28,441 nt of DNA, taken from the IMG/VR virus record IMGVR_UViG_3300034374_008744, positions 1 through 28,441 of that record; one strand, given 5' to 3'. Shown here one piece after another: positions 3,729 through 19,201 of this stretch. Numbering within the stretch: the first letter of the stretch is position 1; each line of letters begins with the position of its first letter. A program made the translations under genes and the position numbers. The notes beneath the pieces were generated by a model. That model did not search any database. It was not told the origin of the DNA and was given only the letters and a program-made list of their open reading frames with translations. This DNA comes from a virus.

Positions 3729-3803
3729 GTTTTAAGCGGTTTAATATCCCTTTTTGTATATTTGCACCAAAGCCAAAACAAAGCACTTTAAAACGCCTAA
3801 AAA
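3729..3803 (+). promoter_or_regulatory. Late-type promoter and phased repeats before terL
   Basis: A perfect -7 box TATATTTG lies at 3757-3764 without a TTTG at the proper distance. In its place are two phased elements, GTTTTAAGCG (3729) and GTTTAATATC (3739). A second pair, CTTTAAAACGC (3786) and CTAAAAATG (3797), lies in the leader and runs into the terL start codon. Similar arrays occur before 6786, 8854, 12530 and 19292. Confidence 0.6.
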
Positions 3804-4972
3804 TGATATATACCGAAACTCGAGTAATACAGCGAACCTATACCAGCCTAATAAAAAACGTCCCTTATATCATTCAGCAAGGAGGCGTTTCATCAGGTAA
3901 AACATTCGGTATCCTTTACGCCCTATTATCTTATTTTATGTATTATGAAAAGGAGGCAAAAGTCGTATCTATTGTTTCTCAAAATTACCCGCACCTCAGA
4001 AAAGGAGCAATCCGAGACCTCGAAACAATAATCAGGGAGCGAGGCTTAACCGATTTAATAGAGCATAACAGAGGCTCAAATTTCTTTAAACTCCCCAACG
4101 GTACGATATTAGAATATTTCTCAGTAGATAGGGAGGACAAAGCCCTCGGAGCAAAACGGGATTTCCTTTTTATCAATGAGTGCAACGCAATAAATTACGA
4201 TATTATATTCCAGCTATTTATTAGAACTCGAAAAACGGTAATACTGGATTTTAACCCTAAATCTACCTTTTGGCTGCACGATAAACTCCTCCCGTCACTT
4301 AATCAAAAGGATTACGTATTTACCCGAACAACGTATATAGATAATCCAGCCTTGAGCGAAAAGGAGCGGGAGCGTATCGAATCGATACAAGACGACTACA
4401 AACGTGACGTTTACGTCTCAGGAATTACGGGACGCCTGGAGGGCTTAATATTTGACTTTTCAATCGTTGACGAGTTCCCTGATGATTGCGATAAAATAGG
4501 CTACGGGCTTGATTTTGGATTTCACCCCGACCCGACCGCCCTCGTACGTTGCGGAGTTAAGCACGGCAATTTGTATATCGAGGAGCTAATTTATGAAACG
4601 GAGCTTTTAAACAGGGATTTAGCAAAAAGAATGACGGAACTCGGAGTATCTAAAGGCTCAAAAATATTGTGCGACCATTCTCCCTCAAGCATTCAGGAAT
4701 TAAAAAAAGTGTACGGATTCTATACGATGGCCGCAAAGAAGGGGAAGGGCTCAATCATTCACGGTATCCAATTAATGAAAAACTATAATATTAAAATAAT
4801 TAAAAATTCTATAAATTTGATTGCTGAAATGAGCGAGTATGTTTGGGAAACTCGAAACGGGAAACCAACGGGCAAGCCCTCGGAGGGTTTAGACCATTTA
4901 ATTGATGCCTCAAGATATTACGCCTCAACTTATTTAGTGCGACGAGCAAAAACTCGTACGGCAACAATTTAA
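3803..4972 (+). CDS. terL: Terminase large subunit
   Basis: ATPase and nuclease of the DNA-packaging motor. Numbered from this start (389 aa): Walker A GGVSSGKT at 27-34, Walker B FLFINE at 121-126, the coupling-motif region TVILDFNP near 145-152, and a C-terminal RNase-H-like nuclease with Asp237 in GYGLDFGF, Asp291 in ILCDHSPSS and the acidic DHLIDASRY near 364-372. It resembles PBSX/Terminase_3-type large subunits. The frame is open back to 3716, but that earlier ATG lies inside the upstream terminator and ahead of the -7 box, so 3803 is the better start. The gene is followed 10 bp later by the ParB-like gene. TerS is not adjacent; it lies 1.8 kb downstream. Confidence 0.93.
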   Translation: MIYTETRVIQRTYTSLIKNVPYIIQQGGVSSGKTFGILYALLSYFMYYEKEAKVVSIVSQNYPHLRKGAIRDLETIIRERGLTDLIEHNRGSNFFKLPNGTILEYFSVDREDKALGAKRDFLFINECNAINYDIIFQLFIRTRKTVILDFNPKSTFWLHDKLLPSLNQKDYVFTRTTYIDNPALSEKERERIESIQDDYKRDVYVSGITGRLEGLIFDFSIVDEFPDDCDKIGYGLDFGFHPDPTALVRCGVKHGNLYIEELIYETELLNRDLAKRMTELGVSKGSKILCDHSPSSIQELKKVYGFYTMAAKKGKGSIIHGIQLMKNYNIKIIKNSINLIAEMSEYVWETRNGKPTGKPSEGLDHLIDASRYYASTYLVRRAKTRTATI

Positions 4973-4982
4973 AACTTAAAAA

Positions 4983-5675
4983 ATGAAATTAAAAGATTTA
5001 AGGAGCAACCCTCAAAACCCCCGAACTCTAAAGGATACCAGCTTTAAAAAATTGCTTAATAAAATCCTCGTTTATCCTCGTTTGCTGGAAAAGAATAAAA
5101 TCACTTTTGACTCGGAGCAGCAAAATGTAATATTAGGCGGAAATATGCGATTTAAGACGCTTAAATATATTTGCAGTACCTATCGACCTGATAATATAGA
5201 AACGGTTATCAAAACGGCTCAAAACGCTTTAAACATAGATAGTGACGATTTATTAAAAAATAGCGTTTCTGTTTTTTCTGAGCTTATAGAAACAGAAACC
5301 CTCCCTAAAAACTGGACTCAAGACGCTAAAGGATTGAACGAGGAGGAAAAAAACGCCTTTGTAATAATTGACAATGTAAGCGACGGAGATTGGGACTTTG
5401 ACGTATTGGCGAATGGTTGGGATATTGAGCTGAGCGAATGGGGTTTAGTAGATTGGAGCAATGATACGGAGCAGCAAAACGAACAGGATTACAGCGATAA
5501 AAATAATGAATACGGGGAGGATGATTTCAACGATTTAGCTATTTTAAAACTTGAGTTCACTTTAGAGGATTACGAGCTGGTAAAATCGGAGCTTTTAAAG
5601 CACGGTCAAACGCCTGAGGATGCTATTTTCAAACTTTTAAATTTAGACGATGACCGACCACAAATTCCCGTATAA
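4983..5675 (+). CDS. ParB-like protein paired with a DNA methyltransferase
   Basis: The N-terminus LKDLRSNPQNPRTLKDTSFK, then NVILGGNMRFKTLKYI (about residues 49-64), is the ParB-like fold of the type usually found beside or fused to phage DNA methyltransferases. GGNMR is the counterpart of the GQHR loop. After it comes the family-typical FVIIDNVSDGDWDFDVLANG and WDIELSEWGL (about 126-155). The last 70 residues are very acidic. It overlaps the methyltransferase start by 26 bp, so the two are coupled. The role is unproven. It shares little with the other ParB-like protein at 608. Confidence 0.8.
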   Translation: MKLKDLRSNPQNPRTLKDTSFKKLLNKILVYPRLLEKNKITFDSEQQNVILGGNMRFKTLKYICSTYRPDNIETVIKTAQNALNIDSDDLLKNSVSVFSELIETETLPKNWTQDAKGLNEEEKNAFVIIDNVSDGDWDFDVLANGWDIELSEWGLVDWSNDTEQQNEQDYSDKNNEYGEDDFNDLAILKLEFTLEDYELVKSELLKHGQTPEDAIFKLLNLDDDRPQIPV

Positions 5676-6699
5676 ATGGCATTTAAAAAACGGATACCCC
5701 GCTAAAGATATAAATTATCACGGCTCAAAAGTATTTGGAACTTTTGTTTGTGGAGGAGGCTCAACAATGGGTTACAAATTAGCTGGATTTAAACATATTG
5801 GAGGGGTTGAAATTGATGAAAAAATTGCTACCGTTTATAAAGAAAATCACAACCCTAATTATTTCTTTACGGAGGATATAAGGCTATTTAATAAGCGGGA
5901 GGATTTACCCTCCGATTTATACAATTTAGATTTATTAGACGGCTCCCCGCCTTGCTCGAGCTTTTCAATGGCTGGAAATAGAGATAAGGACTGGGGCAAA
6001 AAAAAGAAGTTTAAAGAGGGGCAAAAAATGCAACGCCTTGACGATTTAGTTTTTGAATATATCAAGACGATTAAAAAGCTCCAGCCAAAAGTCGCAATTT
6101 TAGAAAACGTCAAGGGATTAATTCAGGGCAACGCAAAAGCATACACTAAAAAAATATTTCAGGAATTTAGAGCGGCTGGTTATAGGGTGCAATTATTTTT
6201 GTTAAATGCTGCAAGTATGGGCGTTCCTCAAAAGCGGGAGCGGGTTTTCTTTATTGGCCTCAGGAATGATTTTAAACTCCCTAAATTAGAATTAAGTTTT
6301 AATGAAAAGCCTATTTTGTTTGGTGAGATTGAGGATGTGACAGACTTAAACGAAGTTAAAAATAAAGATACAAGGACATATAAAGGTTGGACGTTATCAA
6401 AATCAGGTCAAACTTTTGCAGATGGTATAAATGATGGCGGCAGTATGTTTGGATATACAAAAGTTAATAGAAATGATGTTGTTAAAACAGTTGTTTCAAG
6501 CGATGGTACTTATGAATGGCATGATAAACTATTTAGGAAATTAAATAATTTAGAACTTTTGCAAGTTGGCTCTTATCCTTTAGATTATAATTTTAAAGAT
6601 GTTAAGCCTAAATATTTAATAGGGATGAGCGTTCCTCCAGTGATGACGGCTCAAATATCAAATCAAATATATTTGCAATGGCTTAAGCATATAAAATAA
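5650..6699 (+). CDS. dcm: DNA (cytosine-5) methyltransferase
   Basis: Transfers a methyl group from S-adenosylmethionine to cytosine C5, probably to protect phage DNA from host restriction. Motif I is FGTFVCGGGSTMGYKLAGF (about 29-47), motif IV GSPPCSSFS with catalytic Cys102, motif VI ENVKG (152-156), motif VIII QKRERVFFIG (194-203), and motifs IX/X lie around SYPLDY and IGMSVPP (308-330). The target-recognition region is about residues 220-300. At 349 aa it is a full-length orphan enzyme; no restriction endonuclease is visible. Base use shifts in the target-recognition part (about 6300 onward): fewer GAG/GGAGG words and more A/T, which suggests exchange of the specificity domain. The recognition sequence cannot be read from the protein. 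Confidence 0.92.
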   Translation: MTDHKFPYKWHLKNGYPAKDINYHGSKVFGTFVCGGGSTMGYKLAGFKHIGGVEIDEKIATVYKENHNPNYFFTEDIRLFNKREDLPSDLYNLDLLDGSPPCSSFSMAGNRDKDWGKKKKFKEGQKMQRLDDLVFEYIKTIKKLQPKVAILENVKGLIQGNAKAYTKKIFQEFRAAGYRVQLFLLNAASMGVPQKRERVFFIGLRNDFKLPKLELSFNEKPILFGEIEDVTDLNEVKNKDTRTYKGWTLSKSGQTFADGINDGGSMFGYTKVNRNDVVKTVVSSDGTYEWHDKLFRKLNNLELLQVGSYPLDYNFKDVKPKYLIGMSVPPVMTAQISNQIYLQWLKHIK

Positions 6700-6701
6700 A
6701 G

Positions 6702-6788
6702 CGATTTAACGCACTAAAATAAAAAACCTTATATTTGTATAGGGCAATGATTAAAACGCCTTTAAACGGCTTAAAAAACGGTTAAATG
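6702..6788 (+). promoter_or_regulatory. Late-type promoter and phased repeat array before terS
   Basis: The -7 box TATATTTG is at 6730-6737, with a weak TTTA at 6705-6708 (21-bp spacer) in the -33 position, itself part of ATTTAACGC and CTAAAATAA elements. Downstream is a four-unit array: ATTAAAACGC (6750), CTTTAAACGG (6760), CTTAAAAAACG (6770) and GTTAAATG (6781), the last containing the terS ATG. The T-to-A steps fall at 6752, 6763, 6772 and 6783, close to one per helical turn. As it lies beside terS it could also be a packaging (pac) site. Confidence 0.6.
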
Positions 6789-7154
6789 AGTAACAAAAGT
6801 GACATTTATAAAAGCAGATTGCTTGAGGCGTTGGAAAACTCCCTCGGAGTCGTTACAACAGCGTGCAAAAAAGCAAACGTAAGCCGCAAAACATTTTATC
6901 AATATTGCAATGACGACCCCGAGTTTAAAAAGGCAGTAGATGACATTGAAAATATAGCCCTTGATTTTGCGGAGTCTCAACTCCATAAACAAATACAGGG
7001 AGGCAATACAGCAGCAACGATTTTTTATTTAAAAACAAAAGGTAAAAAGCGGGGATATGTAGAGCGTCAAGAAATAACAGGAAACGACGGAGACGCAATA
7101 CGATTTATCCTCCCCTCAACCTCCGACGATTTAACAAGTGACGAAATAAAATAA
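6786..7154 (+). CDS. terS: Terminase small subunit
   Basis: A DNA-recognition subunit that would guide TerL to the packaging site. The N-terminal helix-turn-helix reads GVVTTACKKANVSRKTFYQY (about residues 20-39). The helical segment DDIENIALDFAESQLHKQIQ and the closing GNTAATIFYLKTKGKKRGYV (about 78-97) are typical of small-terminase proteins. 122 aa is a normal length. It is separated from terL by the methyltransferase pair and has its own promoter and repeat array. It is followed 2 bp later by the gene at 7157. Alternative: a phage HTH regulator, but the C-terminal signature favours TerS. Confidence 0.82.
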   Translation: MSNKSDIYKSRLLEALENSLGVVTTACKKANVSRKTFYQYCNDDPEFKKAVDDIENIALDFAESQLHKQIQGGNTAATIFYLKTKGKKRGYVERQEITGNDGDAIRFILPSTSDDLTSDEIK

Positions 7155-7156
7155 AT

Positions 7157-7537
7157 ATGAAAGCACAAAAAATAAAAGTAACTAAACAGCAAATTCGAGT
7201 TTATACAGCTCAAAATGATATTCGTACTTTTTCCTATGACGAGGAGTTCCTCAAAAAATTAACAGCACCCGAGGGCAGCTTTAAAGTATCGGAAAGCAAT
7301 AAAAACGCAACCTGGTACGAACGCACTACTAAAGCTCCAGCGATTGAGGAAACGCCTAAAATCGAGGCAACCGTTGAGCAAATAGCGACCGCTGATTATT
7401 TGGAGGCAATAGGCTACGAAATAACAGACTCAGCAAGGAGGGAGATTGAATCCTCCGATTTAACCGCTCCCGAAATACTGGAGGATTTAGAGGGGGAAAA
7501 AATAACCGCTTGGCACGTCAAAAAACTTAAAAAATGA
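7157..7537 (+). CDS. Hypothetical protein downstream of terS
   Basis: A 126-aa protein with no recognised family. The first 55 residues look beta-rich (IKVTKQQIRVYTAQNDIRTF). The rest is an acidic, helical region with DYLEAIGYEITDSARREIE and a C-terminal motif EKITAWHVKKLKK that may be a small helix-extension-helix like SAP-type domains. It starts 2 bp after terS and overlaps the next gene by 4 bp (ATGA). Its position suggests a head-tail joining or packaging accessory role, but nothing shows that directly. Confidence 0.55.
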   Translation: MKAQKIKVTKQQIRVYTAQNDIRTFSYDEEFLKKLTAPEGSFKVSESNKNATWYERTTKAPAIEETPKIEATVEQIATADYLEAIGYEITDSARREIESSDLTAPEILEDLEGEKITAWHVKKLKK

Positions 7538-8121
7538 GATTAAACCTCACGGATATTTACAAGATTTTAGCAAACGTCACGGAGCGGGAAAATGATAAAC
7601 TCAAAACCTTTGCAGCATTAAAATTTACGGAGCAGTTTAATGCGGTTGCATTTGATAAAAACTATAAATACAACGCCTCCCCAAACGAGGGGATTTTCTA
7701 CTCTAAAGCATGGGACGATTTAGGGAGACCTACTCAAAAGATGCCTGTCGAATTTCCCGCCCTGATTAGCTTTTCAAATACGATGCGAACGGCTAATAAT
7801 TTTAACCCTATCTACTCAGTAGAAATTTATACGGTTGAGATTGACGAAAGTAAGGTCAAGGCGTGGGAAATTCAAATGACGGATTTAGATTCCTATCTTG
7901 TTTTAGTATTGAGGGAGCTGCAAAAATATGTTTACGTTCAGGATATACCCTCCGAGGGCTGGCACCATTTAGAGGACGCTGAATTATTAGGAGGTCGTAT
8001 TAATGGCTGGTTAAGGGAGCGAATTAAGACTCGACAAATTAATATTACAAGGGGCTACGAACAAACCCCGAAACGCCTCCTTACCGTTGGCACAGCGATA
8101 GAGATTGAGGGTTGTTTTTAA
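7534..8121 (+). CDS. Possible tail-terminator/neck protein
   Basis: A 195-aa protein with an N-terminal helix and a beta-rich middle (NFNPIYSVEIYTVEIDESKV, about residues 89-108). It lies just upstream of an HK97 gp10-like gene in the place where neck or tail-terminator proteins are usually encoded. I do not recognise a named family with confidence. It overlaps the upstream gene by 4 bp and is the last gene before a strong terminator. Alternative: an unrelated structural or accessory protein. Confidence 0.5.
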   Translation: MRLNLTDIYKILANVTERENDKLKTFAALKFTEQFNAVAFDKNYKYNASPNEGIFYSKAWDDLGRPTQKMPVEFPALISFSNTMRTANNFNPIYSVEIYTVEIDESKVKAWEIQMTDLDSYLVLVLRELQKYVYVQDIPSEGWHHLEDAELLGGRINGWLRERIKTRQINITRGYEQTPKRLLTVGTAIEIEGCF

Positions 8122-8151
8122 TATTTTTCATTTGGTTTTATTTGTTAGTTT

Positions 8152-8177
8152 GCCTCCTCGATTGAGGGGGCTTTTTT
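8152..8177 (+). terminator. Rho-independent terminator
   Basis: GCCTCCTC pairs with GAGGGGGC (one G-T) around GATT, followed by six T. It closes the terS operon and isolates cassette B. Confidence 0.9.
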
Positions 8178-8207
8178 AATTAGTAATTAAAATAATTTAA
8201 AAAAAGT

Positions 8208-8238
8208 TTTGATAATTAATAAAAGCATTATATATTTG
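8208..8238 (+). promoter_or_regulatory. Bacteroidota promoter of cassette B
   Basis: TTTG at 8208-8211, a 19-bp spacer and TATATTTG at 8231-8238, behind AATAATTTAAAAAAAG and followed by the leader TTATAATTAAAAACAAACAA. Same module as at 3194, 10733 and 17914. Confidence 0.88.
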
Positions 8239-8290
8239 CTTTATAATTAAAAACAAACAATATTTTTTAGCTTTCAAAACCTTTTTTATT

Positions 8291-8737
8291 ATGACACTTG
8301 AGCCGACAACACTTTATGACTTTGCAGAGAAAAACGCTATACGATTACAGCGAGAAGGAAACAGGTTTTACCGCAATAATAGACCTGATGACGGATTATC
8401 TTTTTACCGTCGTTCTTGGCAGTTTATGAATACGGTGCAAGATATTGAGGGAGGGACAAAAGAAAATAAAGAGCATCTCCCGTTTGCTGAAATTAAGGAC
8501 GGGTATGTAAGAATAGCGAGCTGGAAACGCTGCACCCTTGAGGCTAAAAAATTATTTGATTTAAGCCGCTTTGACCTCCGATATAAAGAGGAAAAAATAA
8601 GAGCAATAATTTTAATTGCTAATGAAATGTTTAGCCGCTGGAGAAAAGATTTCGGAGGGGTTAGTTGCGAGGAAATGGATTTAATCGTAAATCTTGCATA
8701 TTGTAAGGCGGAGGAGCTTGAGGCTCTTATTAAGTAA
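8291..8737 (+). CDS. Hypothetical protein of cassette B
   Basis: A 148-aa soluble protein with no recognised family. It is rich in Arg, Lys and Glu with aromatic residues (FYRNNRPDDGLSFYRRSWQF, about residues 26-45), mostly helical, and has two conserved-looking Cys in the second half. Start context TTATTATGACACTT matches the other cassettes. It stands alone between its own promoter and terminator, inserted between structural genes. This is a moron-like layout, so a role in the host cell rather than in the virion is likely. Confidence 0.65.
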   Translation: MTLEPTTLYDFAEKNAIRLQREGNRFYRNNRPDDGLSFYRRSWQFMNTVQDIEGGTKENKEHLPFAEIKDGYVRIASWKRCTLEAKKLFDLSRFDLRYKEEKIRAIILIANEMFSRWRKDFGGVSCEEMDLIVNLAYCKAEELEALIK

Positions 8738-8766
8738 TGTTTGTAATCATTAATAGTATGGATTTT

Positions 8767-8798: not shown

Positions 8799-8809
8799 AA
8801 TGCTCGTTA

Positions 8810-8850
8810 TTAAAAGACCTTAAAACGGCTTATTTTAGCTTAAAAATAGG
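8810..8850 (+). promoter_or_regulatory. Phased repeat array before the gp10-like gene
   Basis: TTAAAAGACC, TTAAAACGGC, TTATTTTAGC and TTAAAAATAGG follow each other with T-to-A steps at 8811, 8821, 8831 and 8841, an exact 10-bp period. The only -7-like sequence is TATTTTAG at 8831-8838 (one mismatch to TAnnTTTG), and no TTTG lies upstream, so a factor bound to the repeats may be needed. The start codon follows at 8854. Confidence 0.55.
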
Positions 8851-8853
8851 ATT

Positions 8854-9360
8854 ATGGATATACAATCAATAATAGAAAAACAGGCGGAGCAAGTAGCCGA
8901 GTTTTTTAAAGCTGAACTAAAACAGGAACTCGAGGCTCAAGGTCATAAGGATACGGGCAAATTAATAGACTCAATCGAATACGAAATATTAAGCTCCTCA
9001 AAGGAAATTAAAATCGTATTTGAATATTTATTTTATGGAGATATCGTAAACAATGGAGTCAAGCCCGCAAACATTCCTTTTGGCAAATCTACGAACGCCA
9101 AAACCTCAAAATATATCGAGGCTTTAAAAAACTGGGCAGCTCGTAAGGGAATGAAAAACCCGCTCGGAGCAGCGTTCGCAATCGCTAAAACTCAAAAGCG
9201 TGAGGGAATGCCTACAAAGGGCAGTTATAAATTTAGTAGCAACGGGAGGCGTAAAAACTGGAGGAGCTTTACTCTAAATCAATACCTCCCGCAATCACTG
9301 AGGATATTTGCAGACGCTGATTTACAAGATTTAATTAATATAATTTTAAGCCAAAAATAA
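8854..9360 (+). CDS. HK97 gp10-like neck/tail-completion protein
   Basis: A 168-aa protein of the HK97 gp10/minor tail type. The signature is HKDTGKLIDSIEYEI (about residues 31-45), then EYLFYGDIVNNGVKPANIPF (about 57-76), with a basic C-terminal half (SNGRRKNWRS). In siphophages it helps complete the head-tail junction or tail tip. It is transcribed alone from the repeat-array promoter at 8810 and stops just before a terminator shared with the convergent minus-strand gene. Confidence 0.72.
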   Translation: MDIQSIIEKQAEQVAEFFKAELKQELEAQGHKDTGKLIDSIEYEILSSSKEIKIVFEYLFYGDIVNNGVKPANIPFGKSTNAKTSKYIEALKNWAARKGMKNPLGAAFAIAKTQKREGMPTKGSYKFSSNGRRKNWRSFTLNQYLPQSLRIFADADLQDLINIILSQK

Positions 9361-9404
9361 CTATCTTGCAGCGTAATTTTTTTCATAGGTACATAATGCT
9401 TCAC

Positions 9405-9431
9405 AGCCTCGAGAAAGCTCGGGGCTTTTTT
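9405..9431 (+). terminator. Terminator between convergent genes
   Basis: AGCCTCGAG pairs with CTCGGGGCT (one T-G) around AAAG, with six T on the plus strand that reach the stop codon of the minus-strand gene. It is efficient only for plus-strand transcription; the minus strand lacks a T run after the stem. Confidence 0.88.
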
Positions 9432-10644
9432 AATCCAAACTTTTAAAACTCGCTATATATCCCTCCTCGCTTGGGTTGAAAATCTCGTAATAAAAGCCCG
9501 CTTTATTTTTCCCGAAGTTCGTTGTTGTGTAGGTTGTATTTCCTACTAATGACGCAACGTTTATATAGTCAAACCATTTGCCGCGATTCATAGAAAACTG
9601 GTGCAAATCTCCCTTTATTACTCGGGGGTTTTTTAGATTATGCTCGAGGCAATATTCCTTTATAAATAGTTCCGTTTTATTATCAAGATTCAGCGGGAGG
9701 CCGTTTCGTCGGTATTGCGTATCCTTGCCGTGAGTGAAAATTATATCGTGGCTCCCTATTTGCTCAAAACCTAAAAACTCCGTATTGAGGAGCGTCGGGA
9801 GGTTGTAGGCTTTTTGGATATACTCAAATATTAAACGCCAAGCGAAATAACTAAAATCCCCCGAGTGATTGTCGTTGCACGTTGCTATAAATTTATAATC
9901 CTGAGCAACGCCCGCCTCGATAATTGAATTAATAAATTTTATTTCCGTCTCAACTAAAAAATCAAATTGATTGCGATTATTTAAGTTTTGCTCCAGCTCG
10001 TGGCCTCCCCTTGTCGTCTTATTATTGAAACCGTCGAGGGCGTCTCCAAGGTCGAAATAATACATTTTTGAGAATGCTCCAAACCGTCGCTGGATCTTTA
10101 GTACCTCGCAATAAATATCGTACATTTTAGCCGTATGCCCTTGAGCGTTTTTATATAAATCGATTTCGTTTTGTTCGCTCCCGACGTGCTTATCGGAGGT
10201 ATAAAGGCAAAGGATTAAATCGTTTGTTTTTGGAATTACTGGAGGGGTATATTTTAGGGGCGTTTTAAGGCGTTTTAAGAGTCGCTCAATAGTTTCTAAT
10301 AATAAGCCCTCCTCCTCCTTTTTCTTTGCCTCGTATGTTATATTCTGCACCCCGTGACCAAGGTTTACAATTTTACGAGGCTCAAACCCTGGAGGGATTG
10401 CCTCAATAGCTGCAAGGCGTTTTGATTCTACCGTTTTAATTACCTCCCCCGCTTTATTATAAACCCGTTTCGTTACCTCCATTTTAGTATTAAGGAGTTC
10501 CGATATATAGCGTTTTAAATGATTTATTGAGACCTCCTCCTCGGGGTGCAGTCGCTGGATTTCTTTTGCGATTGAGATATAAGTATTGAATTGCGGGAGC
10601 TGGTTTAATTGCTCGATTAGCTCGTTATATTTTTTGTATTTCAT
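9430..10644 (-). CDS. Calcineurin-like metallophosphoesterase
   Basis: A 404-aa two-metal phosphoesterase. The metal-binding set is in order: Asp151/His153 in TSDKHVGS, Asp198-Gly-Asp201 in FDLGDALDG, Asn259-His260 in CNDNHS, His305 in FTHGKD, and the GDLHQF motif with His348. The N-terminal 130 residues are helical and charged and may bind DNA (EEVSINHLKRYISELL resembles an HTH). Family members include Mre11/SbcD-type nucleases, and phage versions are often annotated as DNA-repair exonucleases; the actual substrate is unknown. It is the only gene on the minus strand, divergent from cassette C and convergent with the gp10-like gene. Its upstream region (10651-10664) holds TTAAAAATAAGC, similar to the array elements. 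Confidence 0.85.
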   Translation of the reverse strand: MKYKKYNELIEQLNQLPQFNTYISIAKEIQRLHPEEEVSINHLKRYISELLNTKMEVTKRVYNKAGEVIKTVESKRLAAIEAIPPGFEPRKIVNLGHGVQNITYEAKKKEEEGLLLETIERLLKRLKTPLKYTPPVIPKTNDLILCLYTSDKHVGSEQNEIDLYKNAQGHTAKMYDIYCEVLKIQRRFGAFSKMYYFDLGDALDGFNNKTTRGGHELEQNLNNRNQFDFLVETEIKFINSIIEAGVAQDYKFIATCNDNHSGDFSYFAWRLIFEYIQKAYNLPTLLNTEFLGFEQIGSHDIIFTHGKDTQYRRNGLPLNLDNKTELFIKEYCLEHNLKNPRVIKGDLHQFSMNRGKWFDYINVASLVGNTTYTTTNFGKNKAGFYYEIFNPSEEGYIASFKSLD

Positions 10645-10732
10645 TTTTTGACTTAAAAATAAGCATTTATAAAAGGTATAAGCACCCTCAATAAAAATAA
10701 TTGAATTTATTTTTAAAATAATTTAAAAAAAG

Positions 10733-10764
10733 TTTGGATAATAGGAAAAGCCGCCTTATATTTG
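10733..10764 (+). promoter_or_regulatory. Bacteroidota promoter of cassette C
   Basis: TTTG at 10733-10736, a 20-bp spacer and TATATTTG at 10757-10764, preceded by the TTTTAAAATAATTTAAAAAA block and followed by TTATAATTAAGAAACAAACA. It diverges from the minus-strand phosphoesterase; the 170-bp gap 10645-10814 holds both regulatory regions. Confidence 0.9.
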
Positions 10765-10814
10765 GGTTATAATTAAGAAACAAACATTATTTAATAAATC
10801 AAAACTTTACTAAA

Positions 10815-11630: not shown

Positions 11631-11771
11631 ATGAAAGCACGAGTAATTACCTATACAGAAAACAACACTAAAATAATAACAGGGAAAATAGAGATTGAAA
11701 TTGCCCTCCGTATCCAAGAGGAACTCGAGAAAATAGACCCTACTCAAGAACATATAATTTACATAATATGA
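11631..11771 (+). CDS. 46-aa protein upstream of the spanin candidate
   Basis: ORF MKARVITYTENNTKIITGKI continuing to a C-terminal EEHIIYII-like hydrophobic end (TQEHIIYII). It overlaps the next gene by 4 bp (ATGA), so it is translationally coupled. Base and codon use match the surrounding genes. No family recognised and no signal peptide. Coupling to a lysis-type gene hints at a role in lysis timing, but this is speculative. Confidence 0.5.
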   Translation: MKARVITYTENNTKIITGKIEIEIALRIQEELEKIDPTQEHIIYII

Positions 11772-12214
11772 GACCAATTTATTTGATTTTAGCGGCTTTA
11801 TTGCTTTTAGGCTGCAATAGTACCAAGCAAGCCGCAAAACGCTTAAAACGGCTTAAAAATAGCAATCCTGAGTTATTTGAGGCGGATACAATATATAAGA
11901 TTAAAATTGATACAATCAAGCTCCAAACAATGGGGGAGCGTTTCGATACAATCGTCAAGGGAGCGGATACAATTTACATTAAGACTCCCGAGCTAAAAAC
12001 GGAAATAAAAATTATTAGAGATACGCTGGATTTTTGGAGGGTGCAAACAATCGTTAAGCCGTTGACAAAAACCGTCATTTTGAGGGATACCAGTTTTATA
12101 ATAAAGGAGCAAGTAACAACGGAAATAAAATACAGGGAGCGGCTCAATTGGTATTTAATAGCTTTGGTTTTTCTGTTATTTCTTTTTATTTTGCGGAGGT
12201 TAGTGATTAATTAA
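11768..12214 (+). CDS. Candidate unimolecular spanin (lipoprotein with C-terminal TM)
   Basis: A 148-aa protein with an N-terminal lipoprotein signal: MRPIYLILAALLLLGCNST, where the lipobox LLLLGC gives Cys16 as the lipidated residue. The periplasmic part is beta-rich with repeated DTI/DTL units (about 40-110). A C-terminal membrane segment WYLIALVFLLFLFILRRL (about 128-145) ends in a basic tail. Outer-membrane lipid anchor plus inner-membrane span is the architecture of u-spanins, which fuse inner and outer membranes in the last step of lysis. No endolysin is visible nearby; the multi-span protein at 25836 could be a holin but lies in the foreign segment. Alternative: a general membrane-linking lipoprotein. 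Confidence 0.65.
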   Translation: MRPIYLILAALLLLGCNSTKQAAKRLKRLKNSNPELFEADTIYKIKIDTIKLQTMGERFDTIVKGADTIYIKTPELKTEIKIIRDTLDFWRVQTIVKPLTKTVILRDTSFIIKEQVTTEIKYRERLNWYLIALVFLLFLFILRRLVIN

Positions 12215-12281: not shown

Positions 12282-12288
12282 ATTTGAG

Positions 12289-12390: not shown

Positions 12391-12525
12391 GTTTTTAAAC
12401 GGTTGCGTTAATTTCTGAGCGTTTTAAAGCGTTTAACCTATTGAGATAATAAAACATAAGGGCTTGAGCATTAAAACGGCTTAAAAGCTAAAAAACAGGC
12501 ATTTAAACGGATTTTAATATATTTG
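12391..12525 (+). promoter_or_regulatory. Phased repeat array and -7 box of the tail operon
   Basis: Elements are GTTTTTAAACGG (12391), GCGTTAAT (12405), GTTTTAAAGC (12421), GTTTAACC (12431), ATTAAAACGGC (12470), TTAAAAGC (12481), ATTTAAACGG (12501) and ATTTTAAT (12511). T-to-A steps at 12472, 12482, 12504 and 12515 keep helical phase with one turn skipped. A perfect TATATTTG lies at 12518-12525. The ATG at 12530 begins about where transcription should start, so the mRNA may be leaderless. No TTTG box is present at -33. Confidence 0.6.
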
Positions 12526-12529
12526 TATA

Positions 12530-14503
12530 ATGGACGTAAAAATATATATCGACAAAATAGAGGTTGACTATTCAGAAAACCAAAACTTGCCCTTTGTTCT
12601 CCGTATTGCATACAGGGATTTCCGTAAGATAGGAGAAACGGAGGCAATCGACGTGATGAATGCTGCGACCTCCTTACCCTTACCAGCTACTAAAAAAAAT
12701 CAAAACATACTTGAGGGCAACGAGAATAAAGATTTTAGTTTTGAGGTAACGAGGAACGGGCAAAACTTCTTTTTAGGGCGTTGTAGAATAGTGAACAAAA
12801 GCTACAAAAGGAGTAAATTAATCTCGTACAATTTGGAGCTTTTCGGGGGAACGGCTGATATATTCGAGCGGCTGGAGGGCGTATCGTTAAGGGATTTAGA
12901 CCTCGGGCAGATTGGCTACTCCTCCCCGTCAATTACTGCAACGTGGGCAAACCAAACGAGCGACTCGAATTTAGCTATTTATTTACCCGCTGTTTATGGG
13001 CAATTAAACTCAGGAACTGCAAACCGATTTGAGGTTGAGGATATGCGACCCTCCGTATATTACGAAACGATTTTAAAAGGGATTGAAGATTATTTAGGAA
13101 TTACGATTAATAGCAATTTGAGGGGGACGGATTATTGGAAACGTTGTGTACATTTATTCGGCGTTGGGGAGCTTTGGGAAAACTTTAGCACTCCAATTAC
13201 AATAAATTTAATTTCAGACGGAACGGTCGATACCTTGACTTATACTCAATCGAGTAGCGACACAATAGTTTACAAAGTTGAGGTAAACGTCCCAGCGGGG
13301 AATAATGCTGCAAACGATTTGCACCATTTAGAGATTAACTCCTCAGCGGGGTATAATCAATATATAGCTTATGACGCTACAAATGGAAACGACGTCGTAA
13401 GTGCTGAAATTGAAATAAATTCGGTCGGGCAATCAATAACATTAGAGGGTTTTAAAACTGGAGGCTCATCAAGTGCAAACCTACCAGCGGGAACACAATT
13501 TTTAATAAAATCTACAAGTAAGGTCGTTATTGGCTCAAGCGTAAATATTGCGAGCTGCCTTCACGACATAACGGTCAAAGATTGGCTCAAGGATTTATTT
13601 TTGCAATTCAATTTAGTGTCGTTTTATAATCCAGTGACAAAAATGCTGGACCTTGACCCCGCTTTTGCCTTTACGATTGACGGAGTGCACGGCGGAACGT
13701 ATCAAGGATTTTATAAAACTGATAATCCTCGTACAATAAAAGCCGATACAAGGGAAAGCCAAAAAGCATTCCAGCCGTTATTTGATTCAGCGGTTTTCAA
13801 TTACAAAGCAGACGAGGCAACCGAGCCGCTAATTAATCAATTTGTAATTCATACGGACCACCCGCTAAATTGTATTCACGTGCATATAAACGAGGGGAAA
13901 AATTCAAAGGATTACGAGTCGATTTACTCAAATGTAGCAAACGGATTAGTCGATGGAATTACAACCGCTGAACTGCCGATTTTAGTCGATTCGGACGTTG
14001 ACCTATTGGAGGGGGCAGCCGCTATTTTAGAGCCTACATTTATCACTGAGCCTAAAAATGCAATATTGAGCGGGGAGATTTTCTCAGGGTTTTTCGAGGG
14101 CGTAAACGTTACGACAATGCCTATTGCACGGCAGAACAATTTGCGAGGATACCGCCCCTATACTTTAACGTTTTCCGACGCTGAGGGGAGGACGGGAGGC
14201 AATAGCGAAACGCACCGAGGATTAATATCAATATTTTATAATCAATATTTCAGCATATTATCGAGGCTTGAAATCTTAACGCTGGAGGTTGAAATTGAGA
14301 ATATTTTAGACCCTGAAACTTACCGCAATGTTTATAAAATTGATGGGGAGTTTTATATCCTGATTGAGCTTAAAAAGGTAAATTATAATACGACTTTTTG
14401 CGAGGGGGTTTTTGCTAAATACGATTTAATAAGGGAGGACGATTCCGACTTTTACGAGAACTTTAATCCTCCAGGGGCTTTACAAATTCTAAATATTATA
14501 TAA
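12530..14503 (+). CDS. Large tail structural protein upstream of the tape measure
   Basis: A 657-aa beta-rich protein with no signal peptide. The N-terminal part (about residues 1-110) looks like a small beta domain with GQNFFLGRCRIVNKSYKRSK. The C-terminal part ends in an Arg/Asp-rich region with ETYRNVYKIDGEFYILIELK (about 601-620) and CEGVFAKYDLI, a pattern I associate with Bacteroidota phage baseplate or tail-tip proteins. It is the first gene of the tail block and overlaps the tape measure start by one base (taATG). A baseplate/hub role is an inference from position and composition. The order differs from most siphophages, where hub genes follow the tape measure. Confidence 0.55.
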   Translation: MDVKIYIDKIEVDYSENQNLPFVLRIAYRDFRKIGETEAIDVMNAATSLPLPATKKNQNILEGNENKDFSFEVTRNGQNFFLGRCRIVNKSYKRSKLISYNLELFGGTADIFERLEGVSLRDLDLGQIGYSSPSITATWANQTSDSNLAIYLPAVYGQLNSGTANRFEVEDMRPSVYYETILKGIEDYLGITINSNLRGTDYWKRCVHLFGVGELWENFSTPITINLISDGTVDTLTYTQSSSDTIVYKVEVNVPAGNNAANDLHHLEINSSAGYNQYIAYDATNGNDVVSAEIEINSVGQSITLEGFKTGGSSSANLPAGTQFLIKSTSKVVIGSSVNIASCLHDITVKDWLKDLFLQFNLVSFYNPVTKMLDLDPAFAFTIDGVHGGTYQGFYKTDNPRTIKADTRESQKAFQPLFDSAVFNYKADEATEPLINQFVIHTDHPLNCIHVHINEGKNSKDYESIYSNVANGLVDGITTAELPILVDSDVDLLEGAAAILEPTFITEPKNAILSGEIFSGFFEGVNVTTMPIARQNNLRGYRPYTLTFSDAEGRTGGNSETHRGLISIFYNQYFSILSRLEILTLEVEIENILDPETYRNVYKIDGEFYILIELKKVNYNTTFCEGVFAKYDLIREDDSDFYENFNPPGALQILNII

Positions 14504-17500
14504 TGCAAAAAACAGGATTTACAATAACAATAAACGGGGTCGAAAAATACCTCAAAGATTTCAACTCATTAAACGAGGCGTATAAACAAAACCTCGAGCA
14601 ATTAAAAGGACTTGAAACGGGAACGGAGGAGTATTATAAGCAACAGCAAGTCGTCGCACAATTAAAAAACGGATTGAGTGATTTCAACGAGGCTTTAAAG
14701 GAGCAATCCTCAATATTACAGGACGTACCGACGGACTCGCTGGAGCAATTAAACAAAGAATACAAACAGCAATTAAAAGAGCTTAAAAAGCTCCAAATTG
14801 GCTCGGAGGAGTATAATAAGCAGCTCGACGTTGTAGGTAATTTAAAAAATCAAATCAGCGATTTTAATAAGGCAATACGGGAGCAAGCAAAGGAATATGA
14901 AAACCTAAATAAAGGGGTAACGGCTTATAAGGAATTAGAGGCAGAAACTCGCAAGCTAAAAAACCAAAGTAAGGAATTAGCGGCTCAATTAATCAAGCTG
15001 GAAAAGGAGGGAAAAGCAAATACAAAAGAGTTTGCAGACCTCGAAAAGCAGTATCAAGACACAACGAAAAAGGCTCAGGAATACGATAAGCAATTAAAGG
15101 AAATTGACGAAACGGTCGGAGATTCATTCCGCAACGTTGGTAATTATAAGCAAGGAATTTTAGAGGCTTTTGATGAGGCGGGCGTCGGTGCGTCGGGGTT
15201 TGATAATAAGCTCAAAATATTGACTAAAAATCCTATTATCTTAATCATTGGATTAATTGTAGCGGGCTTAAAATTGTTATTTGATGCCTTTAAGCAATCA
15301 GAAACAGGAACGCAATTAATGAATAAAGCGGGAGCGATTACCTCCGCTGTATTTAGTACTCTGGTTGGATTAGCCGACGATTTGGCTCAAGCTGCAATCG
15401 ATTTAGGAACTCGAATTAAAGAAACTTTTGAGAATCCGAAACAAGCGATTGAGGATTTTAAAAAGCTAATTAAAGAAAATATCCAAAACCGTTTTGAGGG
15501 GCTGCTCGAGTTAATTCCAGCTTTAGGCGAAGCGATTACCCTATTATTTAAAGGGCAATTTGGTGAAGCGGGGACGGTTGCATTTGATGCTGTCGCAAAA
15601 GTTACGTCTGGAGTAGAGGGAGCAAGCGGTAAGATTAAAGATTTTGCGGGCAAAGTTAAGGAAGGCGTCGAGGAAATGGCGGGCAAAATTGAGGAGAATA
15701 TTAAGGCAGCCGATGCCCTCGCTCAAGCTCAATTAAACTCGGCTAAAACTCGAAACGAAATACAGAAATCAATAGAAAACTTGACGACTGCATACGAAAT
15801 AGAAAACCAAAAAGCCAACGATACTACAATCTCCCTCGCTGAGCAAAAGGAGGCAATGAAAAACAGCATGGCAATACGGGAGCAATTAGCGGCAAAGGAA
15901 ATCGCACTCGCTAAAAACGGGCTGAGCCTAATCGACCAAGAAATGGCAATACGTAAGAGGAATAAAATGAGTGTAAACGATTTACTCGAGGCTCAAACGT
16001 CGGCTTTTTCTGAGCTTAAAGCAGCAGAGCGGGCGTATTCATTAGCAGTAAAAGAAAACGCAACGGCAAGGCGGGAAATGCGAATTACGGAGGCTAATTT
16101 GGAGCTTGATATTTTAATTGACGTTTTCGACAAAAGAAAAACAATAAACGAAACGCTAATTAATGACGAGGAAACCACGCACGCACAACGTCAAGCCCTC
16201 CTCGATGAAACCCGAAAACTCGCTGATAAAAGTTATAAGGAACAGGGAGCAATTATTCAGGAATTTACCGACCAAAAAATCAATTTAGACGAACTGGTAA
16301 AAGAGTCGGACGCAACCGTCCTTGCTGAGCGGATTAATAACATGGGGCTTAATGAAAACATTGCTACTCGATTGATTGAGGTTGTAAAGGAACGGCAACA
16401 AGCGGAGGCGGATTTTGCTGAGGTACAAAAGGAAATTAATAAACGCAATATTGAGGATAAATTAGAGGCGTTGGAAACTGAGGAGGAAATCGCTGAGCAA
16501 CTGGCAGAAATTCGTTTTAAAAAGGGTTTAACGAGCGAAGAGGAGTATAATGAGGAAGTAATAAAAATTCAATTAGATAGGCTGCAAAAGGAACTTGAGG
16601 CCTCCGAGCTAACAGGTGACGAGCGTATAAAATTAGAGAATGAAATCCAGCTCAAAATATTAGAATTAAAAGAGGCTGGAATTGAAAAGGAGCTCGGATT
16701 AATTGACGAAAAATACAAAGAGGAGGAGGATTTGTTAAACGAGCAATTATTAAAAGGGGAAATTAAAGAGCAAGAGCACGAGGATAAATTAATGGAATTG
16801 AGGGAAAAAGCCCTCGAGGATAAAATCGAATTTCTCAAGGAATCAGGGGACGAGCAACGGGAATTAATGGAGGAGTTAATGGACGAGGAAGTCGAGCTCA
16901 ACAAAGAAAAGAACGAAAAATTAAAAGAGCAAGACGAGGCGGCTAAAGAGGCAAGGATTCAAAATGCCCGAGCAATTTCTCAATCCTTACAAGGGATTTC
17001 AAACGGTTTATTTGCAGCCCTGATAAATGCAGCCGAGGGGAATCAGGAACGGCAATTAGAATTACAACGAAAGCAATTTCAAGTAAATAAAGCCTTTTCG
17101 GCAACGGATGCAGCTATTAATACAGCTCAAGCGTTTACGGGTGCATTATCTCAATATGCCGAAACGCCTTTAGTTTTTATTATACCCCCGCTTATTTTAG
17201 CTCAGGGAGCGGCTCAGGTAGCAGCGATATTAAGCCAAGCTCCACCAATGGCGGCTGGAGGATTTACAGGTCGAGGGGGCGTAATTGACGAAACAGGGCA
17301 ACGGACGACGGGACTTTATAGATTGCACGAGGGGGAATACGTCGCTCCACGCTCGCAAGTAATGGCAAACCCTGGATTATTTGCAGCCCTCGAAAATAAC
17401 AGGATAACAGGTGCAGCGTTTCAAAATCCTATACAACCACAGCAAAACGACGACCGTTTAATCTCGGCTATTTCAAGAATGACGAGCAATATTAAAGTCG

Positions 17501-17571
17501 TTGCAGACGCTGAGGAAATTATAAAAATTGGTAATGATAAACAGCAAATTAAAAAATCTAAAAACTTGTAA
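14503..17571 (+). CDS. Tail tape measure protein
   Basis: A 1022-aa protein that would set tail length and reside in the tail tube. It is almost entirely coiled coil, very rich in Glu, Lys and Gln. Two tandem copies of a ~50-residue unit occur at about 21-68 and 79-128, ending FNEALKEQ and FNKAIREQ. A membrane-like segment NPIILIIGLIVAGLKLLF is at about 243-260. The C-terminal region has AAGGFTGRGG and TGLYRLHEGEYVAPRSQV (about 915-955), a typical tape-measure ending. Its length would predict a tail of roughly 150 nm at the usual 1.5 angstrom per residue. It is unrelated to the second tape measure at 26278. Confidence 0.9.
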   Translation: MQKTGFTITINGVEKYLKDFNSLNEAYKQNLEQLKGLETGTEEYYKQQQVVAQLKNGLSDFNEALKEQSSILQDVPTDSLEQLNKEYKQQLKELKKLQIGSEEYNKQLDVVGNLKNQISDFNKAIREQAKEYENLNKGVTAYKELEAETRKLKNQSKELAAQLIKLEKEGKANTKEFADLEKQYQDTTKKAQEYDKQLKEIDETVGDSFRNVGNYKQGILEAFDEAGVGASGFDNKLKILTKNPIILIIGLIVAGLKLLFDAFKQSETGTQLMNKAGAITSAVFSTLVGLADDLAQAAIDLGTRIKETFENPKQAIEDFKKLIKENIQNRFEGLLELIPALGEAITLLFKGQFGEAGTVAFDAVAKVTSGVEGASGKIKDFAGKVKEGVEEMAGKIEENIKAADALAQAQLNSAKTRNEIQKSIENLTTAYEIENQKANDTTISLAEQKEAMKNSMAIREQLAAKEIALAKNGLSLIDQEMAIRKRNKMSVNDLLEAQTSAFSELKAAERAYSLAVKENATARREMRITEANLELDILIDVFDKRKTINETLINDEETTHAQRQALLDETRKLADKSYKEQGAIIQEFTDQKINLDELVKESDATVLAERINNMGLNENIATRLIEVVKERQQAEADFAEVQKEINKRNIEDKLEALETEEEIAEQLAEIRFKKGLTSEEEYNEEVIKIQLDRLQKELEASELTGDERIKLENEIQLKILELKEAGIEKELGLIDEKYKEEEDLLNEQLLKGEIKEQEHEDKLMELREKALEDKIEFLKESGDEQRELMEELMDEEVELNKEKNEKLKEQDEAAKEARIQNARAISQSLQGISNGLFAALINAAEGNQERQLELQRKQFQVNKAFSATDAAINTAQAFTGALSQYAETPLVFIIPPLILAQGAAQVAAILSQAPPMAAGGFTGRGGVIDETGQRTTGLYRLHEGEYVAPRSQVMANPGLFAALENNRITGAAFQNPIQPQQNDDRLISAISRMTSNIKVVADAEEIIKIGNDKQQIKKSKNL

Positions 17572-17573
17572 AA

Positions 17574-17783
17574 ATGAGCAAAAGCAAAGAATTAGCAACT
17601 CCGTTAAACTTGACGAGAATGTTTCCTGAGTGTGGATTAAATTCGTCTCAAATAGGATACGCCTATTTTGTCGGAGCGGTCGCGGGGATTAAACCTCCAG
17701 GTAATCGCACGGCTTTAATTTATGTAGATAGTTTTATTGAGTTCTTGAAATATCGAGAAAAAGTCGCTAAATTTGAGCGTTGA
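17574..17783 (+). CDS. Small hypothetical protein after the tape measure
   Basis: A 69-aa protein starting 2 bp after the tape measure stop. The region NSSQIGYAYFVGAVAGIKPP, then ALIYVDSFIEFLKYRE, has the layout of a small winged-helix/excisionase-like DNA-binding domain (helix, turn, wing, helix), but the match is weak. It is the last gene of the tail operon. If it does bind DNA it would be a candidate regulator for the repeat arrays. Function not established. Confidence 0.5.
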   Translation: MSKSKELATPLNLTRMFPECGLNSSQIGYAYFVGAVAGIKPPGNRTALIYVDSFIEFLKYREKVAKFER

Positions 17784-17828
17784 AACCTACATAAGACCTC
17801 AACTTTGAGGCGTTACGTTTTGATTGTT

Positions 17829-17848
17829 ATAAATAATTGTTTGTTTCT
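17829..17848 (+). repeat. Segment complementary to the cassette leaders
   Basis: Just before the tail-operon terminator, TTGTTTGTTTCTAA is the reverse complement of the leader core TTAGAAACAAACAA. It matches 13 nt of the cassette D leader (17953-17965) and 13 nt of the cassette A leader (AGAAACAAACAAT). An exposed antisense stretch followed at once by a terminator hairpin is the layout of a 3'UTR-derived small RNA. Confidence 0.5.
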
Positions 17849-17876
17849 AAGCTCCTTTAAACAGGGGCTTTTTTTA
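17849..17876 (+). terminator. Rho-independent terminator of the tail operon
   Basis: AAGCTCCT pairs with AGGGGCTT (one T-G) around TTAAAC, followed by a T run. Confidence 0.88.
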
Positions 17877-17913
17877 TTTAATTACATTTATTTTTAAAAT
17901 AATTTAAAAAAAG

Positions 17914-17945
17914 TTTGGAGGTTTAAGAAAGTCGTTATATATTTG
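17914..17945 (+). promoter_or_regulatory. Bacteroidota promoter of cassette D
   Basis: TTTG at 17914-17917, a 20-bp spacer and TATATTTG at 17938-17945, with the same upstream TTTTTAAAATAATTTAAAAA and downstream TTATAATTAGAAACAAACAT as the other three cassettes. Confidence 0.9.
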
Positions 17946-17996
17946 CTTTATAATTAGAAACAAACATTAATTTTTTAATAATCAAAATCAATTATC

Positions 17997-18170
17997 ATGA
18001 CTACTTTAGAAAATTTAAAAATCGAATTAGCAGCAAAAAATGAAAGATGTTTAGAGATTAGAGAAATATTAATTTGTAATCAATTAGCTTATCCTATATG
18101 GGGAGCAGACTACGAAGCTGTAAAGAAAGATATTGAAATATTAGAAAACCAAATTAAAGAATTAAGCTAA
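17997..18170 (+). CDS. 57-aa protein, first gene of cassette D
   Basis: ORF MTTLENLKIELAAKNERCLE ending in KKDIEILENQIKELS; two amphipathic helices around a short IWGADYE linker, probably a small helical hairpin or coiled coil. It is too short for many gene callers. It has the cassette leader and the ATGAC start, and its start (MTT-L) resembles that of the 40-aa gene at 10815. It is followed by a hairpin at 18180. Function unknown. Confidence 0.65.
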   Translation: MTTLENLKIELAAKNERCLEIREILICNQLAYPIWGADYEAVKKDIEILENQIKELS

Positions 18171-18179
18171 ACCAAACAG

Positions 18180-18197
18180 GGGAGGAGCAATCCTCCC
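18180..18197 (+). promoter_or_regulatory. Intergenic hairpin without T run
   Basis: GGGAGGA pairs perfectly with TCCTCCC around GCAA, followed by TATTATT rather than a T tract. It occupies the same place as the hairpin at 10961 (after the first small gene of the cassette), so an mRNA-processing, stability or attenuation role is likely. Confidence 0.65.
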
Positions 18198-18225
18198 TAT
18201 TATTAACAATCAAAATAATACTAAA

Positions 18226-18438
18226 ATGAATACAGCAAAAAAAGAATACTCAAGCAAATCAAACGCAAAGCGAGCTTTAAAAAGCAAAACGCATTATTTC
18301 CACGAGGACGAAACAAAAGGGTCAATTTCCTTTGGGAACTTATGGATTGAGGGAGCAACCCTTTACGCCTCCTCAGAGTATTGGAGCGAAACAACGTTAT
18401 CGGATTTCCTTAATAACAAAAACAACGTAAAACTATGA
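18226..18438 (+). CDS. Hypothetical protein of cassette D
   Basis: A 70-aa protein with a basic N-terminus (MNTAKKEYSSKSNAKRALKS) and an aromatic, beta-type C-terminal half (SFGNLWIEGATLYASSEYW). It starts behind ACTAAAATGA, the same start context as the genes at 10815 and 11023. It overlaps the next gene by 4 bp. No family recognised. Confidence 0.6.
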   Translation: MNTAKKEYSSKSNAKRALKSKTHYFHEDETKGSISFGNLWIEGATLYASSEYWSETTLSDFLNNKNNVKL

Positions 18439-18779
18439 AATCAATAGACCAAAGAATTAACGATTTAAAGAAATCCAGCGACTGCAAAAGCGTTACTGAA
18501 CTTGATAAGGAGGCAGCAAAAGCCTATACAATCCTCGTCGAATTACGGAGCAAATATTACATATTATCCGACAATGATTTTGAGCATTTGTGCAAATATA
18601 ACCTCGATGCAGCGGAGGATTATTTATACCGCAAAAGCGACGATATAAAAACAGAGCGAGGGAGCAACGCTTTAGACAATCATTGCAGCCTCCTCGACTG
18701 GTACCAAAGGGAGCGAGAAATTGAGGCTCACGAATACGAACAGGAATTAGCATTTAAAAACCGTATGGATTATAAATAG
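18435..18779 (+). CDS. Hypothetical helical protein of cassette D
   Basis: A 114-aa acidic, strongly helical protein (TELDKEAAKAYTILVELRSK about residues 21-40; QREREIEAHEYEQELAFKNR near the end). No membrane span or signal. It is coupled to the upstream gene by an ATGA overlap and followed 14 bp later by the secreted-protein gene. No family recognised. Confidence 0.6.
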   Translation: MKSIDQRINDLKKSSDCKSVTELDKEAAKAYTILVELRSKYYILSDNDFEHLCKYNLDAAEDYLYRKSDDIKTERGSNALDNHCSLLDWYQREREIEAHEYEQELAFKNRMDYK

Positions 18780-18793
18780 TAAAATCTAAAGCA

Positions 18794-19051
18794 ATGAAAA
18801 AAAATATAATTATAGCAATCTTATTAATCGGAGGTTTAACCGCCTCCGCTCAAACTTACGAGGATACATTAAAAGCACTTACGTTTACCGAATTAGACTC
18901 AGTATTCAGAAAAACTCAATGCGACTATATGCATATACAAAAGGATATGATTTTCAACTCAACACTCGAGCCGCGATTTAAAGAAATAGGCAGACGATTA
19001 GAAATAATAAGCAGACGGAGGGAGTTTTTACTCCAGCTTGAAAGGATATAG
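18794..19051 (+). CDS. Small secreted protein of cassette D
   Basis: An 85-aa protein with a clear Sec signal peptide: MKKNIIIAILLIGGLTASAQ, with likely cleavage after ASA (residue 19) as is common in Bacteroidota. The mature part is about 65 residues, charged and helical (RFKEIGRRLEIISRRREFLL). No lipobox. An exported small protein in a moron-like cassette could act at the envelope, for example in superinfection exclusion or lysis control; this is inference. Last gene before a strong terminator. Confidence 0.7.
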   Translation: MKKNIIIAILLIGGLTASAQTYEDTLKALTFTELDSVFRKTQCDYMHIQKDMIFNSTLEPRFKEIGRRLEIISRRREFLLQLERI

Positions 19052-19068
19052 TATTGATTTTGATTTAT

Positions 19069-19103
19069 AAGCCTCCTAAATTTAGCGTTTAGGGGGCTTT
19101 TTT
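19069..19103 (+). terminator. Rho-independent terminator of cassette D
   Basis: AAGCCTCCTAAA pairs with TTTAGGGGGCTT (one T-G) around TTTAGCG, then six T. Just upstream, 19053-19065 (ATTGATTTTGATT) is the exact reverse complement of 17980-17992 in the leader of the same cassette. Confidence 0.9.
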
Positions 19104-19145
19104 ATTTTATACCCTTATGTTTCTATTATTTGAGGATTAAAAGCC

Positions 19146-19201
19146 CTTAAAACGCCTTAAAATCGCTTTAAATAGCATTTAATAGGCTTTTTTTATATCC
19201 G
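19146..19201 (+). promoter_or_regulatory. Phased repeat array before the tail/capsid operon
   Basis: CTTAAAACGC (19146), CTTAAAATCG (19156), CTTTAAATAG (19166) and CATTTAATAG (19176) are spaced exactly 10 bp, followed by a weak -7-like TATATCCG at 19194-19201. A second weak candidate is TTG 19219-19221 with TATTATTG at 19242-19249 (20-bp spacer). The remaining 19202-19291 is an untranslated A/T-rich stretch ending in an A-rich start context. Confidence 0.55.

Follow-up and report, generated by a model that had tools for sequence, protein, structure and literature searches.

Helically phased TTAAAACG arrays before the late genes of a tailed phage and their resemblance to the strong gyrase site of Mu

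The 28.4-kb virus record IMGVR_UViG_3300034374_008744 (28,441 nucleotides, an incomplete genome, referred to below as the window) carries five arrays built on the word TTAAAACG, all of them in gaps that lead into structural or packaging genes. The arrays are a real, helically phased element that is present in multiple copies. Judged from their sequence, they may be one-armed sites for the wrapping of DNA by gyrase, similar to the strong gyrase site (SGS) of phage Mu. This is the reading that we favour, at somewhat less than an even chance, and in this work the arrays have been filed as SGS-like rather than as proven SGSs. Consensus -33/-7 promoters and the related phages point to a host among the Bacteroidota.

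The repeated element and its phasing

The five arrays, and the units adjacent to one of them, are positioned as follows.

3728..3803, + strand: array before the gene for the terminase large subunit (terL); two opposite-strand units (3728-3744), TATATTTG at 3757, then TTAAAACGCCTAAAA at 3788
6737..6797, + strand: array before the gene for the terminase small subunit (terS); TTAAAACGCCTTTAAACGGCTTAAAAAACGG, located 3' of TATATTTG at 6730
8804..8852, + strand: array before the neck/tail-completion gene; TTAAAAGACCTTAAAACGGCTTATTTTAGCTTAAAAATAGG
12467..12525, + strand: array before the tail operon; exact TTAAAACGGCTTAAAA at 12471, adjoining TATATTTG at 12518 on its upstream side
19137..19187, + strand: array before the tail/head operon; exact TTAAAACGCCTTAAAA at 19147
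12391..12440, - strand: opposite-strand units on the left side of the tail-operon array, without helical phasing

Each of the five late-leading gaps has one exact copy of TTAAAACG on the + strand, at 3788, 6751, 8820, 12471 or 19147, and there is a further exact copy at 12420 on the - strand. These gaps hold six exact copies in 889 bp, compared to 0.3 in shuffles (p<0.001), and the other gaps hold none in 1258 bp. After correction for the choice of word, a + strand 8-mer common to all five gaps was obtained in one of 300 shuffles. Read directly, all five arrays contain TTAAAACGSCT, in each case on the same strand. The longer word TTAAAACGSCTTAAAA, with at most one mismatch, occurs seven times in the window, is absent from 40 shuffles, and is also absent from 357 kb of comparison phages, a set of other phages that are mostly from Bacteroidota or related through TerL.

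Of the six gaps in front of structural or packaging genes, five contain an array, compared to none of the nine other gaps (hypergeometric p about 0.002). The initial annotation had placed them before such genes only. The distribution among the gaps agrees with this, but exact 16-mers are also present within genes, at 10263 (-) and 11843 (+), where two copies were found compared to 0.017 expected from synonymous-codon shuffles. These two copies and a weaker one lie in the following places.

10250..10278, - strand: exact element inside the minus-strand gene 9430-10644
11834..11862, + strand: exact element inside the open reading frame (ORF) 11768-12214, where it encodes KRLKRLK
5209..5236, + strand: weak copy TCAAAACGGCTCAAAACGCTTTAAAC inside ORF 4983-5675, in coding sequence and without strong phasing

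A first scan, which chained the units, was too permissive, giving hundreds of weak chains, and was replaced by exact words, shuffles and motif-blind phasing. A search of the literature found no paper containing the repeat sequence itself.

Phasing was measured over the whole genome by a motif-blind W/S Fourier scan for periods of 10-11 bp in 47-nt windows. The regions 19141-19187, 12468-12514, 6753-6799 and 8804-8850 rank 1, 2, 5 and 7 in the genome, respectively, and the amplitude of 3769-3815 is within the top 0.5%, so that the arrays are phased, as the initial annotation had proposed. TTAAAACG is present at all five of its loci. Two details of that description had to be revised. The left half of 12391-12525 shows no phasing, its amplitude of 5.7 being at the 17th percentile, and the locus at 3729 really consists of two opposite-strand units plus one or two downstream. 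A gyrase geometry with two arms had seemed plausible by eye at 12391-12525 and was rejected when the left half failed the phase test; there is no second periodic arm at this locus.

Similarity to the gyrase site of Mu

In the Mu record the gyrase cut is annotated at 17879/17880, in the gap between genes G and I, and this is the SGS. The sequence TTAAAACGcgccacgggattTTTAAACCGGtaTTTAACGG is read 16-17 bp to the right of the cut; it starts with TTAAAACG and continues in phase with TTTAAACC and TTTAACGG. The right arm of the Mu site is essential and the left one is dispensable, and the repeat motifs of the right arm bend DNA (PMC10052514). The gyrase motif derived by Topo-Seq consists of two 47-bp arms with a G/C phasing of 10.75 bp, and its resemblance to nucleosomal DNA has been pointed out (PMC6379681). 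Few replicons, namely Mu, pSC101, pBR322 and Mu-like prophages, are known to have strong gyrase sites (PMC6379681, PMC10052514), and the sequence definition of gyrase sites is still being worked out (PMC12393610).

The Mu-like set comprised 80 relatives of protein I, of which 68 non-redundant loci were used for the density count. The gap before gene I in these contigs contains 2.1 exact copies of TTAAAACG per kb, compared to 0.10 per kb elsewhere in the same loci, a 20-fold difference. In one of the contigs (L036) an array of the exact octamer separates the Mu genes G and I. Among closer relatives, 23 aligned loci gave 13 distinct arrays, each with four to five TTAAAAC units. A 47-nt matrix constructed from these 13 arrays, with Mu excluded, served as the SGS-arm model, and it ranks the Mu SGS arm first in Mu (score 8.5).

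Applied to the window, the matrix gives matches at 19139, 8806 and 6737 that are clearly above the shuffle maximum of 4.1. The array at 19137..19187 scores about 15.6-15.8, the window maximum, on the - strand; the arrays before the neck/tail-completion gene and before terS score about 10.6-10.7 and about 7.4-7.5, respectively. There are five scores of at least 7 in about 33 kb of the window lineage, one of them at 17890, compared to four in the 357 kb of comparison phages. The phased, bendable right arm of ~47 bp that characterizes an SGS is therefore found here, as the phase ranks indicate and as the model indicates clearly for three of the five arrays.

The highest score, 31.6, belongs to positions 1691-1737 (-) of contig L010, which is 99% identical to the window; this is the strongest SGS-like array of the lineage. 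The site is within a putative replication ORF (1030-2220), about 3.15 kb to the left of the window. In 2000 synonymous-codon trials of this gene a score of 31.6 was never reached, although the encoded protein by itself gives a score of 20 in 1% of the trials. The site shares AAATGCTATTTAAAGCG, as the reverse complement, with the array at 19147, and could be part of an origin. The differences between the window and L010 are clustered and the gaps carry no changes; because of the clustering, the unchanged gaps are uninformative.

The Mu right arm resembles the window arrays in that TTAAAACG is helically phased and lies on the late-transcription strand. The Mu gap is situated among late head genes, and the window array at 19137 likewise precedes the head-protease/portal block. 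However, Mu has one central site, which is needed for replicative transposition, whereas the window phage has five or more, mostly at the starts of late blocks, and no transposition genes were seen in it. The G-I arrays of Mu-like phages, presumably of Pasteurellaceae (L036, L069 and their relatives, and the Haemophilus phage SuMu, L149), contain TTAAAAC units at 10-11 bp and often follow a terminator-like hairpin. Each of these phages has a single array in one fixed place, unlike the multi-copy arrangement in the window phage. The E. coli Topo-Seq motif has in common with the window arrays the arms of about 47 bp and the G/C phasing of 10-11 bp, which has been read as a GyrA-wrapping bend (PMC6379681), but it is degenerate and two-armed, whereas the window arrays have one clear arm.

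Recurrence in other phages and genomic context

Three phased units (TTAAAACGNNTTAAAACGNNTTAAAA) were found in 22 IMG/VR contigs, about 13 of which are independent by eye, and nearly all of these arrays are intergenic. The controls gave fewer matches: TTAAAAGC, which has GC in place of CG and an equal composition, was found in 4 contigs, and a 13-bp spacing in 3, only one of them independent. Their positions include the starts of terS-terL operons (L023, L027), a tail-tube gene (L039) and a cos-type end (L035, L041, L042). A scan of other phages had been proposed in the initial annotation; the comparison set lacks TTAAAACGSCTTAAAA, and phages whose hosts are unrelated carry the TTAAAACG octamer with a 10-bp spacing.

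The 3' end of L035 and the 5' ends of L041 and L042 coincide, with a TTAAAACG array and an HNH gene next to it about 112 bp away. L035 extends 12 bases past this common end and then runs into sequencing adapter, which fits a cos end with a short overhang. Contigs L023, L025 and L032 start at an identical first base, 59 bp ahead of a five- to six-unit TTAAAACG array and the terS-terL operon, and their position 1 is likely a genome terminus.

Many chromosomal matches, in Flavobacterium and others, are clean tandem satellites with a 10-bp unit (TTAAAACGAA); they were counted as background and not accepted as support. At three Flavobacterium loci (L051, L061, L067) intergenic clean TTAAAACGAA satellites of 10 bp adjoin frames starting with M(D)A-NKILYKE, which we take to resemble the GxxExxY family. 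The TATAAACGCC nucleosome-positioning repeat, selected by eukaryotic histones, also has a 10-bp period and is known for wrapping DNA. It differs from the 10-bp repeat TTAAAACGCC at two positions and, unlike the window arrays, is no phage element.

The annotation of the window names genes for MazG-like, ParB-like and single-strand-binding proteins, terL, terS, the tape measure, the head protease and the portal. Small cassette genes with promoters of the consensus TTTG-N19/20-TATATTTG are interspersed among them. The genes and blocks that follow the arrays are listed below; in the late block, gene 21293 would be the capsid gene by its position.

3803..4972, + strand: terminase large subunit (ORF annotation)
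6786..7154, + strand: terminase small subunit (ORF annotation)
8854..9360, + strand: tail completion/neck-like protein (weak match)
12530..17571, + strand: tail block, with 12530-14503 (without a named family) and the tape measure, 14503-17571
19292..25603, + strand: late block, with 19292, head protease 19859, 21293, portal 22529 and structural gene 24560

Cassette promoters at 3160-3250, 8190-8260, 10710-10800 and 17890-17970 have one common layout, in which an A/T-rich AATTTAAAAAAAG is followed by TTTG-N19/20-TATATTT(G/A) and then, in the leader, by AAACAAACA; they are likely to be one copied promoter module. Between 25400 and 28441 the composition and word use shift abruptly and GAGG/GGAG words are nearly gone. 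A second tape-measure protein begins at 26278 (phrog_1533, E 1e-90), in addition to the one at 14503-17571. The change at 25400-28441 suggests a mosaic junction or a chimeric assembly. Searches for closer relatives with the capsid and portal proteins gave nothing useful, and the tail protein search gave zero matches. The arrays are missing from the TerL relatives, which have 25-40% identity.

Possible readers of the arrays

The interpretation of the arrays as SGS-like arms builds on what is directly observed, namely that they are present and phased, that they are like the Mu and Mu-like arms, and that they are more frequent than in shuffles and comparison phages. In each turn of the helix an A/T block with TTAAAA at its centre is followed by G/C, and about 50 bp of such DNA would bend easily round a protein. 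The likeliest wrapping protein would be the host DNA gyrase, acting through the C-terminal wrapping domain of GyrA. The cuts are predicted 16-17 bp upstream of the first TTAAAA, near 3771, 6734, 8793, 12454 and 19120. Being mostly in gaps where late units start, the sites would maintain negative supercoiling of the template while it is heavily transcribed late in infection and replicated, and might help to open promoters that have a good -7 but no -33 box.

Several observations weigh against this interpretation. The matrix partly detects phased A/T, and its second-best match in the window (17890, score 11.8) is upstream of a cassette promoter, outside the TTAAAACG arrays. Its strand preference is weak, the best match, at 19139, being on the - strand. 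The tail-operon array scores just 0.2 (12467), and the terL array is below 0 (3788), with no match of 0 or more anywhere in 3728..3803. Some arrays have only two to three good units and lack a second arm. Topo-Seq found gyrase downstream of active operons (PMC6379681), but arrays are missing from the gaps that follow late operons here (8122, 17784). Gyrase binding by the arrays of the Mu-like contigs is itself presumed from their position and resemblance. Furthermore, the similar array of L035, L041 and L042 lies ~112 bp from a physical end, so that phased DNA of this kind may be used by other proteins as well. The TTAAAACG word may serve any DNA-wrapping protein, including TerS near cos ends.

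The initial annotation had attributed the coordinated activation of the late operons to a phage activator that would recognise the phased TTAAAACG units from one side of the helix and replace the -33 contact. Its account of the promoter boxes was accurate. A good -7 box, TATATTTG, is present at 3757, 6730 and 12518, with no canonical one at the 8820 and 19147 loci, and TTTG-N17-22-TANNTTTG is present at cassette promoters and absent from the late gaps. Together with the concentration of arrays in structural gaps and the identical, same-strand TTAAAACGSCT, this gives an activator positional support. However, an activator replacing the -33 contact should keep one register. At the terL and terS loci TTAAAACG begins after TATATTTG, by 31 and 21 bp respectively, but at the tail operon it precedes TATATTTG by 47 bp, so that the five loci do not show the constant spacing to the core promoter that an operator would have. 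Neither are the sites confined to late promoters, given the coding copies and the SGS-like site in the replication-type gene of L010. No late activator gene was recognised among the annotated ORFs of the incomplete genome, and the TerL relatives lack the array. The octamer is found in phages of very different hosts and in the Mu gyrase site, and this favours a conserved reader over an activator private to the phage. The activator reading thus fails on register and exclusiveness; it is weak, and we consider it unlikely. It is likewise doubtful that shape alone accounts for the arrays, with phased A/T bending the DNA round RNA polymerase or HU-type proteins and replacing the -33 box without gyrase or an activator. 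Phasing is the strongest feature of the arrays, phased A/T is also found upstream of cassette promoters (17890, 10709), and by direct reading the last units at 12471-12525 and 19137-19200 share their register with a -7-like box. The best units at 3788 and 6751, however, are downstream of TATATTTG, and shape does not explain the fixed CG, as TTAAAAGC, of the same composition, is much rarer (4 versus 22 contigs).

The arrays directly before terS (6751) and terL (3788), and those of other phages beside terS-terL (L023, L027) or 112 bp from a physical end (L035, L041, L042), would suit cosB- or pac-like sites bound by the small terminase subunit in packaging. Packaging needs one site, however, whereas the lineage has at least five, some of them before tail or neck genes and one inside the replication-type gene, and the ends of the window relatives L009-L011 are away from the arrays. 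A terminase function of the arrays is improbable. That A/T-rich gaps and selective reading produced the arrays by chance is hardly credible: the genome is low in GC and some coding copies track KRLK-type peptides, but the corrected 8-mer was matched in one of 300 shuffles, the 16-mer count is 7 versus 0, the arrays hold top genome ranks in a scan blind to the motif, and TTAAAACGSCTTAAAA does not occur in the comparison phages.

If the SGS-like reading holds, a tailed phage of Bacteroidota might have several arms for the loading of gyrase, placed where its late operons start. Host gyrase could then set the supercoiling of the late promoters in place of a dedicated activator, and the wrapping word could have been reused across unrelated phages for gyrase and perhaps for terminase. 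This wider picture is speculative, and its chances are low. A compact word, TTAAAACG once per turn, shared by Mu, Mu-like phages and, in several copies, an unrelated phage, would be a searchable rule for phage wrapping sites and would allow a connection of gyrase with the expression of late genes to be tested.

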